Source: Candidatus Portnoybacteria bacterium CG02_land_8_20_14_3_00_45_8 (lineage in GTDB: Bacteria; Patescibacteriota; Minisyncoccia; Portnoybacterales; GWB1-42-6). Taken from it: DNA of 10,595 nucleotides. The stretch is taken from positions 1 to 10,595 of the forward strand of contig PEUE01000052.1 of assembly GCA_002780785.1 (NCBI GenBank), written 5' to 3'. Under the pieces are notes generated by a model. The model saw nothing but the letters and a program-made list of their open reading frames with translations, was not told the DNA's origin and did no database searches. Both the position numbers and the translations under genes were made by a program. Positions 1 to 10,211 of the stretch are shown in pieces. The stretch's first letter is position 1. Each line of letters starts with the position of its first letter.

Positions 1-1438
1 TTCTATTTTTTCCCTCAACATAAGTCTGTTCGGTTCCCTTACCTAAAAACAAGACAATGTCCCCCGCCTGCGCCAACGACAATCCCCTCGCGATTGCCTG
101 GCGCCGGTCTAAAATAATTTCCGGCTGCGTTTTTTTGCATCCAACGGCAATTTGCTGACAAATTTCCTCCGGCAATTCATCGTACGGGTCTTCGTTGCAA
201 ATTATAACTATATCCGAATTCTCGCTGGCGATCCGGCCAAGCTCCGGCCGCTTCCACTTATCGCGCCCGCCGCCCGCTGAACCGAAGACAGAAATGATTT
301 TGGGTTTTTTCCTCCCATCCTCAATTGAGGAGGGGCTGGCCTGCCCGCCATTGGCCTGAGCCGCAGGCGATGGCAGGCGAAGGGAGGTGATGTTTCTATT
401 TTCAACACCCCACCTTAATCCTCCCCTCATCTGAGGGGAGGAGACAATATTTTTTAATCCGTTAAATAATTTAAATACTTTCTCAAAGGAATCCGGTGTG
501 TGCGCCAGGTCTACTATCACTGAAAAATCCTGCTCCTCGTCAATCATTTCCAAGCGCCCCGGAATGGCTTTGATTTTCCCTAAGGCCCGTGCCGCCGTTG
601 CCAAGTCCGCGCCGCACGCCAGCCCCACCGCCATCGCCGCCGCGCAATTATACACATTAAACTCACCGAGTAAATTTGTTTTAAACTTCACACCATTAAT
701 CTCAAATTCGCTGCCATTAGCATATAATTGAATATTAGAAATTTTGAGCTCAAATAACTCCCCCCGTAAAGGGGCGTGGCTCCCACGGGTCTTTACGCCC
801 TCGCCCCCTCTTAATTTCAGAGGGGGAACTGCTCCCTCCTTTTTAAAGGAGGGTTGGGGAGGATTTAAAAAATACCCAATTTTTTTCTTCACCGGAAATG
901 CTAAAAAATGCTCCGCATTCTCATCATCTAAATTATAGACCCCGAAGCTATTTTTGTTTCTGGCTGCCGCCGCAAATAATTTTTCTTTCTCTTGACGATA
1001 ATTCTCAAATCCGCCGTGCGCCTCCAAGTGCTCCGGCGCCAAATTGGTAAATACCGCGCCCGCCCAATTAATAAACCGATGCCGGTGCTGTTTTATTCCC
1101 TCGCTGGTTACTTCCACCAATGCATACTCACAGCCATTTTTCACTATCTGCCGCAATGTCCGCTGTATAAAAAACCGGCCGGGCATTGTCATATGATAAG
1201 GATTCATTACTTCCTTTTTCCCGTCATTTATTGTCAGCGATGAAATCCAGCCAACTTTTCTACCATTCTCTTCTAAAATCTGCCCTGCCAAAACTACTAT
1301 TGTTGACTTCCCTTTTGTCCCCGTCACACCAATCACCTTTATTTTTTTTGACGGCCAACCATAAGTCACCGCCGCCCAAAAAGCCAGCATCCAATGATAC
1401 CAGCAAAGAATAAAATCAGGAATTAATTTTTTAAGCAT
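1..1438 (-). CDS. murE: MurE-type Mur ligase (UDP-N-acetylmuramyl peptide synthetase), C-terminus cut by window edge
   Basis: Cytoplasmic ATP-dependent ligase that adds the third stem-peptide residue to UDP-MurNAc-dipeptide. I translated the minus strand and the frame is open to base 1, giving about 479 codons without a stop. Seen, numbered from the ATG at 1438: a hydrophobic helix at about 9-27, P-loop GTKGKST at 40-46, VEVTSEG, then TNLAPEHLEAHG, VDLAHTPDS, and VFGSAGGGRDKWKRPE followed by NEDPYDE. The last group is the C-terminal-domain signature of MurE. The usual N-terminal domain I of about 100 residues is absent, a form I associate with Patescibacteria. The position of the usual DNPR (diaminopimelate) motif reads NEDPYDE, so the amino acid added cannot be named. 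Start choice: AGGAG lies 9 nt before this ATG; an ATG at 1447, overlapping the femABX stop as ATGA, is the alternative. Two in-frame repeat insertions interrupt the protein at about residues 192-227 and 333-379. Confidence 0.9.
   Translation of the reverse strand, partial: MLKKLIPDFILCWYHWMLAFWAAVTYGWPSKKIKVIGVTGTKGKSTIVVLAGQILEENGRKVGWISSLTINDGKKEVMNPYHMTMPGRFFIQRTLRQIVKNGCEYALVEVTSEGIKQHRHRFINWAGAVFTNLAPEHLEAHGGFENYRQEKEKLFAAAARNKNSFGVYNLDDENAEHFLAFPVKKKIGYFLNPPQPSFKKEGAVPPLKLRGGEGVKTRGSHAPLRGELFELKISNIQLYANGSEFEINGVKFKTNLLGEFNVYNCAAAMAVGLACGADLATAARALGKIKAIPGRLEMIDEEQDFSVIVDLAHTPDSFEKVFKLFNGLKNIVSSPQMRGGLRWGVENRNITSLRLPSPAAQANGGQASPSSIEDGRKKPKIISVFGSAGGGRDKWKRPELGRIASENSDIVIICNEDPYDELPEEICQQIAVGCKKTQPEIILDRRQAIARGLSLAQAGDIVLFLGKGTEQTYVEGKNR
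302..442 (-). repeat. In-frame hairpin repeat insertion B inside murE
   Basis: About 47 extra codons split the MurE C-terminal domain between the helix ending KVFKLFNGLKN and the strand beginning IISVFGSAGGG. The DNA is a chain of palindromes. An 11-bp perfect stem occupies 419-429/432-442 with a TC loop. GCCTG/CAGGC pairs at 354-358/364-368. An 11-bp stem with one mismatch, centred on CCTCAATTGAGG, covers 314-335. The encoded residues (SSPQMRGG, then a Ser/Pro/Ala/Gly/Gln-rich run) do not resemble a Mur ligase. The reading frame is kept on both sides. The exact borders are estimates, because they rest on remembered MurE family sequence rather than an alignment. Confidence 0.8.
758..865 (-). 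repeat. In-frame hairpin repeat insertion A inside murE
   Basis: About 36 codons (108 nt) interrupt the MurE central domain between KKKIGYFL and FELKISNIQL. On the DNA it is three consecutive hairpins: 765-771/791-797 plus 775-779/783-787 (CGTAAAG and CGTGG arms with a 3x3 internal loop), 804-811/819-826 (CCCCCTCT, 8 bp perfect), and 834-842/845-853 (CCCTCCTTT, 9 bp perfect, TT loop). The encoded peptide has the pattern NPPQPSFKKEG then PPLKLRGGEG, a translation I recognise as typical of dispersed repeats in bacterial genomes rather than of a folded Mur domain. No stop codon appears in the coding frame. Confidence 0.85.
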
Positions 1439-1443
1439 TTTTT

Positions 1444-2487
1444 TCATCTCCTAGCCATTTGCACCAACCGATACAAAAAATACCACAGCTTATTTAATGG
1501 ATAATCCCAATAGCCGATATAGTTAACTTCCCGCCCGCCAAAGCCCTTTTTAAAACGGGTAAAGCCCTCCCAGGACTGGCCGCGCTTATCTTTGGTGTGC
1601 TCATTCACAATACCCCAGAAATCATATTCGCTGCAACCGCGCTTTTTTGCTTCTTTTATCTGTTCCCACTGCAATAGGTGCGGCGCCATAACTTCGCGGT
1701 GCTCACTGCTGGTGGCGCCATGCAAATACGTGGCGCGATTGCCAAATAGCACAACGATATTCGCCGCAATAATTTTACATTCGTATTCAGCCACAAACAG
1801 CTCAAACTTTATATCCTCGCTATTTATTTCCAGCTGTTTTTTGTAATAATCCTTAGGATGATGTTTGATATTCTTGCGCTCCGAAGTGCCTTTGTCCACC
1901 AGCCGATAAAACTCATTAAAATAGTATTCAAAATTCGTGATATCAGATATCACGAATTTTACTTTCACGCCTTTGCGCTCGGCCAAACGAATATTGTAGC
2001 GCCATTTTTCATGCATTTGCGCCAGCAATTCTTCCTCGCTTTTTGTTATATCCAAAATTAAGGTCTGCGATGGCTCAATATCATAAGGCAACTGCTTAAA
2101 ACCCAGTTTTAATAAAACTTTTTCTATCCCCTGCCCGCTTTCCCATTCCAGTCCCAGCCGAAAAAAAATCCGGCCCGGACATTTTTTCTCTTTGATTTCC
2201 CCTATCAGGTTTTTGATTTTTTCTTTAAAATCCTGCCCTTTGGTTATTCGGCTCATCACCGGTCCGCGCTGAGCGTGCCAATATTTTTTGCCCAGCGGCA
2301 GCGGCATCTCAATAAATTGCGCCTGCATCGCCTCGCCGAAATCCGCACCAGCGGATGAAGGCGGGCCACAACATTTAAAGCGAAAAACGCGCCTACACGC
2401 GCGCTCTTGAAACTCACCCCATTCGTAGGATTGCAAAAACGAGCCGTTATTTTCTAAAATAAATTTATTCCAGCTTTCTTTATTCAT
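1444..2487 (-). CDS. FemABX-family peptidyltransferase (peptidoglycan interpeptide bridge, lipid II aminoacyltransferase type)
   Basis: Protein of 347 aa, a normal length for FemABX enzymes, which use two GNAT-like domains to transfer amino acids from aminoacyl-tRNA onto the stem peptide of peptidoglycan precursors. Seen: an N-terminal FLQSYEWGEFQE at 17-28, then MPLPLGKKYWHAQRGPV, a basic MHEKWRYNIRLAERKGV segment, and the C-terminal family signature ATYLHGATSS, then APHLLQWEQIKEAKKRG, YDFWGI and FKKGFGG. Its stop lies 5 nt before the chosen murE start, and its ATG overlaps the ruvA stop by 4 nt (ATGA), so translation is probably coupled. Pairing with murE fits a shared role in stem-peptide building. 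Which residue is transferred, and whether the donor is a tRNA, cannot be read from sequence. Odd: residues about 41-53 come from a hairpin repeat, and a 31-bp perfect palindrome lies at codons 176-186. Confidence 0.88.
   Translation of the reverse strand: MNKESWNKFILENNGSFLQSYEWGEFQERACRRVFRFKCCGPPSSAGADFGEAMQAQFIEMPLPLGKKYWHAQRGPVMSRITKGQDFKEKIKNLIGEIKEKKCPGRIFFRLGLEWESGQGIEKVLLKLGFKQLPYDIEPSQTLILDITKSEEELLAQMHEKWRYNIRLAERKGVKVKFVISDITNFEYYFNEFYRLVDKGTSERKNIKHHPKDYYKKQLEINSEDIKFELFVAEYECKIIAANIVVLFGNRATYLHGATSSEHREVMAPHLLQWEQIKEAKKRGCSEYDFWGIVNEHTKDKRGQSWEGFTRFKKGFGGREVNYIGYWDYPLNKLWYFLYRLVQMARR
1448..1452 (-). promoter_or_regulatory. Shine-Dalgarno AGGAG for murE inside the femABX 3' end
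   Basis: Read on the minus strand, AGGAG is followed by ATGAAAAAA and then ATG at 1438, a 9-nt spacing. The first ATG (1447) abuts the AGGAG with no spacing, so the site favours the start at 1438. It is the only convincing Shine-Dalgarno sequence I see before a gene in this window. Confidence 0.6.
1930..1960. repeat. 31-bp perfect palindrome inside the femABX gene
   Basis: Two 15-nt arms around a single central base (1945) pair without a mismatch: AAAATTCGTGATATC, A, GATATCACGAATTTT. It encodes roughly KFVISDITNFE in the FemABX protein, in the segment between the two halves. Unlike the other repeats here it is AT-rich. Confidence 0.9.
2332..2365 (-). repeat. In-frame hairpin repeat insertion in the femABX gene
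   Basis: Arms at 2332-2346 and 2351-2365 pair as ATCCGC/GCGGAT (loop ACCA), then a symmetric GAA/GAA internal loop, then CGCC/GGCG plus a GU and a CG pair. It encodes GPPSSAGADFGEA at residues 41-53, between the strand ending VFRFK and AQFIEMPLP. That spot is normally a short beta-turn in this family. The borders are estimated. Confidence 0.7.
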
Positions 2488-3065: not shown

Positions 3066-3070
3066 AAAAA

Positions 3071-3145
3071 CTTACAGAATTACAGATTATTACTGATATA
3101 CAGATAATTAATCCGTAAATCTGTAAGTATCTGTAAATCCGTAAG
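3071..3145. repeat. 75-bp long imperfect hairpin built from TTACAGAT-like units
   Basis: Positions 3071-3105 pair with 3111-3145: 28 of 35 positions are complementary, with a 5-nt loop. Each arm holds about four spaced copies of a TTACAGAT/TTACAGAA-like word, so it is a direct-repeat array folded into an inverted repeat. It fills most of the gap between the divergent ruvA and uvrB. If the ruvA promoter below is right, the structure forms almost the whole ruvA 5' leader. Confidence 0.88.
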
Positions 3146-9998: not shown

Positions 9999-10211
9999 AA
10001 AAATCAAAATGAAAAATGATGCCGACTTTATCGAGCATTCTCGACAAAGTCGGAACAATGTAAAATGACAAAGAAGTTGTCGTCCTGAGGAGCGTAGCGA
10101 CGAAGGATCTCTGGCGAATGCTAGAAGTTTTCTCAAACAAGTTGAGAGATCTCTCCCCCGCCAAGGCGGGGTCGGGATGACGCTACGCGTCAATTTTACA
10201 TTTTGATTTTT
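9999..10211. repeat. 213-bp inverted-repeat element between tsaE and polA
   Basis: Bounded by a 13-bp perfect terminal inverted repeat, AAAAATCAAAATG (9999-10011) and its complement (10199-10211). Within it are a 14-bp hairpin (10022-10053), a GTCGTCC/GGATGAC-type outer pair, CCCCGCC-AA-GGCGGGG (10156-10162/10165-10171) and GACGC-TAC-GCGTC (10179-10191). No gene is seen in it. It fills the only gap over 200 bp in the window. The right end supplies the last codons of tsaE, and the TAA at 10196-10198 lies just inside that end. Confidence 0.7.
10022..10053 (-). terminator. Possible terminator or attenuator hairpin upstream of polA
   Basis: Arms 10022-10035 and 10040-10053 pair at 13 of 14 positions with a 4-nt loop. 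On the minus strand the stem is followed, after CATCA, by T-rich sequence (TTTTTCATTTTGATTTTT). It could end tsaE transcription before polA, or it may simply be part of the surrounding repeat. No clear separate polA promoter was found. Confidence 0.35.

Follow-up and report, generated by a model that had tools for sequence, protein, structure and literature searches.

Di Nocera et al. (PMC3733652, cited from part of the article) reported GTAG- and CGTC-class REPs inside genes, and in-frame insertion of REPs is therefore already known. As described in that part, REPs are hairpins of 20–40 nt that carry a conserved tag on one side and form inverted dimers with the tags inside or outside, and some copies lie in frame in genes, for instance those for repair proteins and tRNA synthetases. 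The repeat that we identified in the murE gene of a small bacterial genome resembles REPs in these respects. It differs in that its tag is TTTAAATCC... instead of GTAG or CGTC, that its host belongs to a Patescibacteria lineage and that several repeat families occupy the same loops of one enzyme. No tyrosine transposase linked to it was found, as is also the case for CGTC repeats according to the same partial text. In REPIN/RAYT systems, copies of the repeat flank a cognate tyrosine transposase, an arrangement that was absent from the seven Y1_Tnp loci considered here.

Other related systems include Rickettsia palindromic elements (RPEs), nearly half of which lay within genes in the first report (review PMC10969869, cited from an excerpt). 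Like the repeat in murE, RPEs are described in the excerpt as dispersed palindromic DNA that is found in frame in unrelated protein genes and is predicted to be compatible with the protein fold. However, by that description RPEs are ~150 bp long and encode a conserved peptide, whereas the unit reported here has ~36 nt and is read in six frames, and it is on this description that we set the two apart. A first-pass annotation of this DNA had named RPEs as the closest parallel; in-frame insertion is indeed alike, but REP-type in-gene repeats, as covered by the cited part of PMC3733652, are at least as close. MITEs are similar in being short, non-autonomous looking, present in many copies and found as inverted pairs (general knowledge and the PMC10969869 excerpt), but no parent transposon or target-site duplication was identified at the loci described here, and the empty sites come only from relatives with divergent DNA.

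Here, we propose that the block in murE arose by insertion of small hairpin elements that are dispersed in the genome and that it is now translated; a mechanism supplied in trans would spread these elements, and protein loops of variable length would tolerate them (estimated probability, about 0.86). Among the matches listed in searches of titles and the beginnings of abstracts in the open-licence literature (subscription papers and preprints lie outside this set), we found no description of such repeats in Patescibacteria/CPR; nor did the matches listed from the open-licence literature describe fixed loops of a single essential enzyme being filled repeatedly by several families of repeats.

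Composition of the insert in MurE

The window (the whole 10,595-nt stretch of DNA that was analysed) is one contig of a genome of 472 kb in 64 contigs (G000, 76% complete); among its closest named relatives are Candidatus Portnoybacteria and further Patescibacteria/Parcubacteria records. Features of its murE gene are listed in Table 1. Positions 758–865 had been described in the first-pass annotation as a 108-nt repeat made of three hairpins and translated within MurE. We found that this segment of the minus strand is codon-aligned and free of stops, as claimed, and that its 36 codons encode NPPQPSFKKEGAVPPLKLRGGEGVKTRGSHAPLRGE, residues 195–230 of MurE. The three hairpins were also recovered, but the predicted DNA fold of positions 750–870 contained an additional outer stem joining the ends of the block, which had escaped the earlier description (z = −3.74; none of 200 dinucleotide shuffles folded as well). 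The view of the block as a single 108-nt repeat had to be abandoned: it joins two REP-like units in inverted orientation to an unrelated hairpin, hairpin C, and the ends of the element lie outside 758–865, at about 752 and 869. The order of bases suggests that hairpin C is nested in the tag of unit 2. The strong match of unit 1 to R1, a model of the unit built from 18 copies, is expected because the window copy is among these 18; independent evidence for unit 1 came from a sequence search of its own genome with the block (see below).

The segment around the second murE block (298–455) had a fold z of −5.61. When murE was scanned in 25 segments of 108 nt, four had z < −2.5, all at the two blocks (−2.63 and −3.33 at the S2 block, −2.93 and −3.01 near 303–452), and the next value was −2.24 at the start of the gene. 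No Rfam family reached its gathering score within the window.

Table 1. Coordinates of murE and of the repeat features within it (window positions).
Feature	Position	Strand	Basis
murE; hosts both inserted blocks	2..1447	-	Mur_ligase_M and Mur_ligase_C, full-length relatives; C-terminus cut by contig end
Composite inserted element at loop site S2, both end tags included	752..869	-	Outer stem in fold; unit 1 extends to 869; tag-like stretch 752–763; far end inferred
REP-like unit 1: tag TTTAAATCC... and hairpin A	834..869	-	R1 match, 57.5 bits, E 6.3e-18
Hairpin A	834..853	.	DNA fold
REP-like unit 2, in opposite orientation to unit 1; holds hairpin B (804–826)	792..826	+	R1 match, 15.1 bits, E 0.0088 (weak)
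Hairpin C, apparently nested in unit 2 tag	765..797	.	Second genomic copy, in frame in ribosomal protein L28
Second hairpin-rich in-frame murE block at site S3, with different repeats	303..452	-	Fold z, S3 length, pLDDT

The REP-like unit and its dispersal

Alignment of the 18 copies, taken from fetched loci, showed that the unit consists of a conserved one-sided tag (TTTAAATCC, then a C-rich stretch) and an 8-bp hairpin. It spans 36 positions with 8 pairs, and its consensus, TTTAAATCCCCCCCAACCCCCCTTTAAAAAGGGGGG, contains neither a GTAG nor a CGTC tetranucleotide. Covariation in the stem amounted to 9 two-sided compensatory cells, a value reached by none of 500 shuffles, although kinship of the copies alone can beat shuffles without any structure; two other measures lay within the shuffles (pairs with two-sided change, 85 of 500; pair types, 380 of 500).

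In the own-genome search, ten other places matched the hairpin A half (E ≤ 3.4e-4) and one place, on contig C56, matched hairpin C (92% over 39 nt, E 2.0e-10). No full second copy was found with the whole 131-nt block as query; only the units match elsewhere. The expectation that the genome would carry many copies, some of them in other genes, therefore holds for the units, which are dispersed and in part lie in frame elsewhere, but not for the whole 108 nt. A search by hairpin pattern located 11 distinct places in the same genome (reversed control, 0). A looser pattern applied to 86 other loci had 8 matches, every one of them in the four loci that belong to this family, and the reversed control gave 3. 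Inverted pairs were common: tag-to-tag pairs occurred on contigs C4, C18, C22 and C45, and a pair with the tags outside was present in the FemAB gene of G008.

Among up to 150 scored candidates per genome, and with double matches (one palindrome on both strands) included, R1 had 25 matches at E ≤ 1e-4 in G000 and, for the other members of the family, G001–G008, 0, 33, 53, 103, 33, 7, 86 and 55, respectively. Beyond the family, 8 matches were detected in G010, a member of another family, and one each in G009, G011 and G013; the remaining ten of the order's 23 genomes had none at this threshold. G001 had no R1 match despite being 97% complete, and G002, from the same genus, had 33, which offers a natural contrast for studies of gain and loss.

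Copies inside other genes

In the window's own genome, in-frame units were found in the genes for MurC, KsgA (twice) and an O-antigen ligase (three hairpin copies). In relatives, in-frame copies were present in FemAB, TsaD, AlaRS, KsgA, a PCRF/RF-1 release factor and an Mfd-like helicase. We surveyed 40 stretches from four genomes, in which 84 copies were identified by pattern (including a few double-strand duplicates). Eighteen of the 84 lay 120 nt or deeper inside ORFs of at least 100 codons, a fraction that is no genome-wide rate because the stretches had been picked for holding R1 matches. Thirteen of the 18 were located in Pfam-identified genes (FemAB, 2; TsaD, 5; Mfd-like helicase, 1; AlaRS, 2; KsgA, 2; PCRF/RF-1, 1); two others were in KsgA identified by alignment, two in an unscanned ORF of 850 codons and one in a possibly spurious ORF of 142 codons.

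Copies were read in every frame: 15 copies in seven genes used all six (3, 2 and 2 copies in the three frames of the same orientation; 2, 3 and 3 in those of the opposite one). A reading of the repeat as a protein domain was rejected for this reason. Four frames were open in 42 of the 84 copies, fewer in 33 and more in 9, of which 3 had all six open.

Another example involved hairpin C, which adds 12 residues (12 codons) to ribosomal protein L28 that are absent from five aligned relatives. With regard to L28 in other genomes of the family, that of G006 was matched and stands outside the alignment, G007 gave short matches with stops only, and G002 gave none. In KsgA (16S rRNA dimethyltransferase), different in-frame repeat inserts were found in the same loops in three genomes (L023, 1948–2940; L206, 1312–2304; L218, 1207–2256). 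The O-antigen ligase-like membrane protein (L011, 264–2471) contained a further repeat-like insert in addition to its three in-frame hairpin copies.

Variable loops of MurE among relatives

In 65 close MurE sequences, three loops varied strongly: S1 before GWISSL, S2 after KKKxGY and S3 before KIISVFG. A fourth place was longer in a few sequences, such as P0018 and P0025. Loops were measured between anchors, which failed in 71 to 98 of 201 sequences per site, mostly in distant relatives, and loop statistics were therefore restricted to the close clade. The whole 36 residues of the S2 block were present in only two of the 65 close sequences, P0001 and P0002, both of which have the N-terminal part of the window's protein. 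In P0004, P0007 and P0018, S2 opens at the same junction with a similar NPPxPSF peptide and then diverges, so that the first unit in these proteins may reflect either common descent or independent arrival. The first-pass annotation had predicted that relatives would lack the block and had held that conservation of the 36 residues in most related MurE proteins, or the lack of any second copy, would speak against a repeat; most relatives lack it, and neither of the contrary outcomes was observed.

Many close sequences had other inserts at the three loops, and many had a short S1 or S3. With loops of at least 25 residues (S1) and at least 27 residues (S3) counted as filled, S1 was filled in 36 of 64 labelled sequences and S3 in 29 of 61. 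A MurE tree (67 sequences, 423 columns) required at least 17 changes at S1 and at least 15 at S3; sequences without anchors are uncounted in these numbers, some sequences are identical, and support is below 80 for 22 of the 60 inner branches. S3 has 68 residues in the window and 20–23 in many relatives, and S2 has 51–92 residues in the measured members of the close clade versus 31 in outgroup sequences. Some close pairs differed at a single site (P0020 and P0060 at S1; P0028 and P0030 at S3).

R1 units were also detected in MurE of relatives. They occur in S1 for G005 and G008, with a weaker match for G003 (E 1.4e-4), and in S2 for G008. A different family accounts for the S2 insert of G003: this insert has 25 matches in G003 (itself included), 10 in G005, 9 in G007, 2 in G008, 1 in G004 and none in G000. 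The S2 insert of G007 was matched five times in G007 (itself included), seven times in G004 and twice in G008, and G000, G003 and G005 had no match to it. Folds were computed for ten of the 11 located MurE inserts of four relatives; nine had z < −2, and the tenth, an A-rich insert of G005, showed no structure.

Predicted structure of MurE

An AlphaFold (AF2) model built with 36 sequences had a mean pLDDT of 70.6. As had been anticipated for the block, it was drawn as an excursion between two strands, here as a coil of very low confidence: residues 199–228, with pLDDT < 50, lie between strands 188–194 and 231–242, and block means of pLDDT in this coil were 26–37. Residues 334–378 (pLDDT < 50) likewise form a coil, between helix 318–335 and strand 384–389. 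The solved structures nearest to the model were MurE ligases and MurE-like plastid proteins (TM-scores, about 0.5–0.6), and the sequence alignments to the two best solved relatives end at residue 183 and restart at 253–255. The model thus fits the blocks being surface excursions, with low pLDDT taken as consistent with, and not as proof of, a flexible loop.

Origin of the inserts

We suggest that the main element is a REP-like unit, composed of the tag TTTAAATCC, a C-rich stretch and the 8-bp hairpin and often arranged in inverted pairs, whose copies would reach new chromosomal sites through a mechanism supplied in trans. The units would be actively mobile and would depend on a moving enzyme. 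To judge from where copies are located, those in genes would survive only where they consist of whole codons, contain no stop and fall in a loop that tolerates changes in length. Three or more loops of this kind exist in MurE; relatives repeatedly differ there, and elements of several families occupy them. The inserts are probably close to neutral for this enzyme. Such genomes would provide a dense natural record of how DNA elements become protein loops of essential enzymes, here in bacteria whose genomes are small. Since close relatives differ time and again in the same loops, insertion tolerance, the rate of turnover and the mover can be asked about directly. There is also a warning for annotation: where unrelated proteins of such genomes share a peptide, its source may be a translated repeat and not homology. 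A broader proposal, which we offer tentatively and consider less likely than not, is that in this Patescibacteria family several unrelated hairpin-repeat families form a common and still active source of new loops, and that fixed loops of core proteins such as MurE, KsgA and a ribosomal protein are refilled repeatedly and faster than the rest of these proteins changes, without a dedicated transposase.

Template switching at replication, or gene conversion among dispersed copies, could also spread and exchange the repeats, so that loops already containing one would receive others, and neither process needs a transposase. Consistent with this are the different inserts in the same loops, the close pairs with a difference in a single loop (such as P0020/P0060 for S1 and P0028/P0030 for S3) and the fact that no link to a transposase was found. 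We nevertheless consider it somewhat unlikely as the explanation, since such processes alone would explain neither how a loop that lacks an insert in relatives, as in L28, was first occupied nor why the tag is conserved.

Alternatively, the units could be moved by a Y1 tyrosine transposase (RAYT, TnpA-REP type) of some of these genomes, as proposed for GTAG-tagged REPs. The REP-like architecture (one-sided tag, hairpin and inverted pairs) points in this direction, and the Y1_Tnp gene of the window's own genome adjoins a KsgA gene with two units. However, Y1_Tnp genes (E ≤ 0.001) occurred in 6 of the 9 genomes in which R1 had at least five matches versus 9 of the 14 in which it had fewer (one of these nine being below the family cut-off), and G004, which is 97% complete and has 103 R1 matches, had none. 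In seven Y1_Tnp loci (flanks of ~1.5 kb, incomplete genomes), R1 matched at E ≤ 0.01 only in L023, within the neighbouring KsgA gene, and several of the loci have palindromes of their own instead. Both the loci and the distribution among genomes thus fail to support a cognate tyrosine transposase for the unit, and we regard this origin as unlikely.

An own palindrome was present both beside and inside the Y1_Tnp gene in four of the seven loci (L023, L146, L147 and L150), the scored loci being all but L148. L149 had two palindrome copies within the open frame, and L145 had other palindromes beside the gene. The palindromes of the RAYT-like genes (L023, 1182–1943; L146, L147 and L150; L149) were gene-specific and ~21–25 nt long, for example TCTATTGAGGTTGAACCTCAATAGA-like in L023 and L147. 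The cited part of PMC3733652 describes tyrosine transposases whose flanking inverted repeats have no relation to REPs, and the Y1_Tnp genes found here therefore look, by that partial account, like a known kind.

Returning to insertion of units spread in trans, it has also to be weighed against a benefit of the added loops, which might have been selected, for example, as disordered linkers that bind partners. The greater length of S2 in the close clade (51–92 residues, compared with 31 in the outgroup) would suit such a role, but close relatives differ in both sequence and length at one and the same site, and the unit is read in six frames, so that no peptide is conserved; selection for useful loops is very improbable. 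Removal of the block before or during translation, by splicing or ribosome bypassing, so that it would be missing from the enzyme, might be suggested by the strong predicted hairpins in the coding strand, but was rejected as highly implausible because the examined in-gene copies sit in open frames, which removal would not need, and all six frames are open in only 3 of the 84 copies (four in 42). Finally, we give hardly any credence to an assembly artefact created by repeats, for which a second MurE C-terminus on contig C22, sharing 52 bases with the window, could be taken as a sign of mixed strains, given that the S2 block is also present in P0001 and P0002 (contigs of 2289 and 11043 bases, possibly from the same sample) and that proteins from several public sources carry comparable inserts.

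Additional observations

The second MurE C-terminus opens contig C22 (L004, 1–500); its 52 bases are identical to the window (1–545), after which the two diverge, and P0002 consists of the window's N-terminus joined to a C22-like C-terminus. Judging by these sequences, the binned genome combines different haplotypes or contains a recombinant, and a second haplotype may therefore account for roughly the first 500 bases of the window.

Further repeat-like sequences were observed in the window. A short stretch of FemAB (2340–2380) has the sequence KCCGPPSSAGADFGEAM, and the G008 orthologue has another repeat-like insert at this place. A 20-nt inverted repeat, 90% complementary, lies between ruvA and uvrB (3070–3128). 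The polA–tsaE intergenic region contains a block (9999–10211) with long inverted arms (9999–10017 and 10193–10211) and nested repeats, some of which are similar to the CGTC type.
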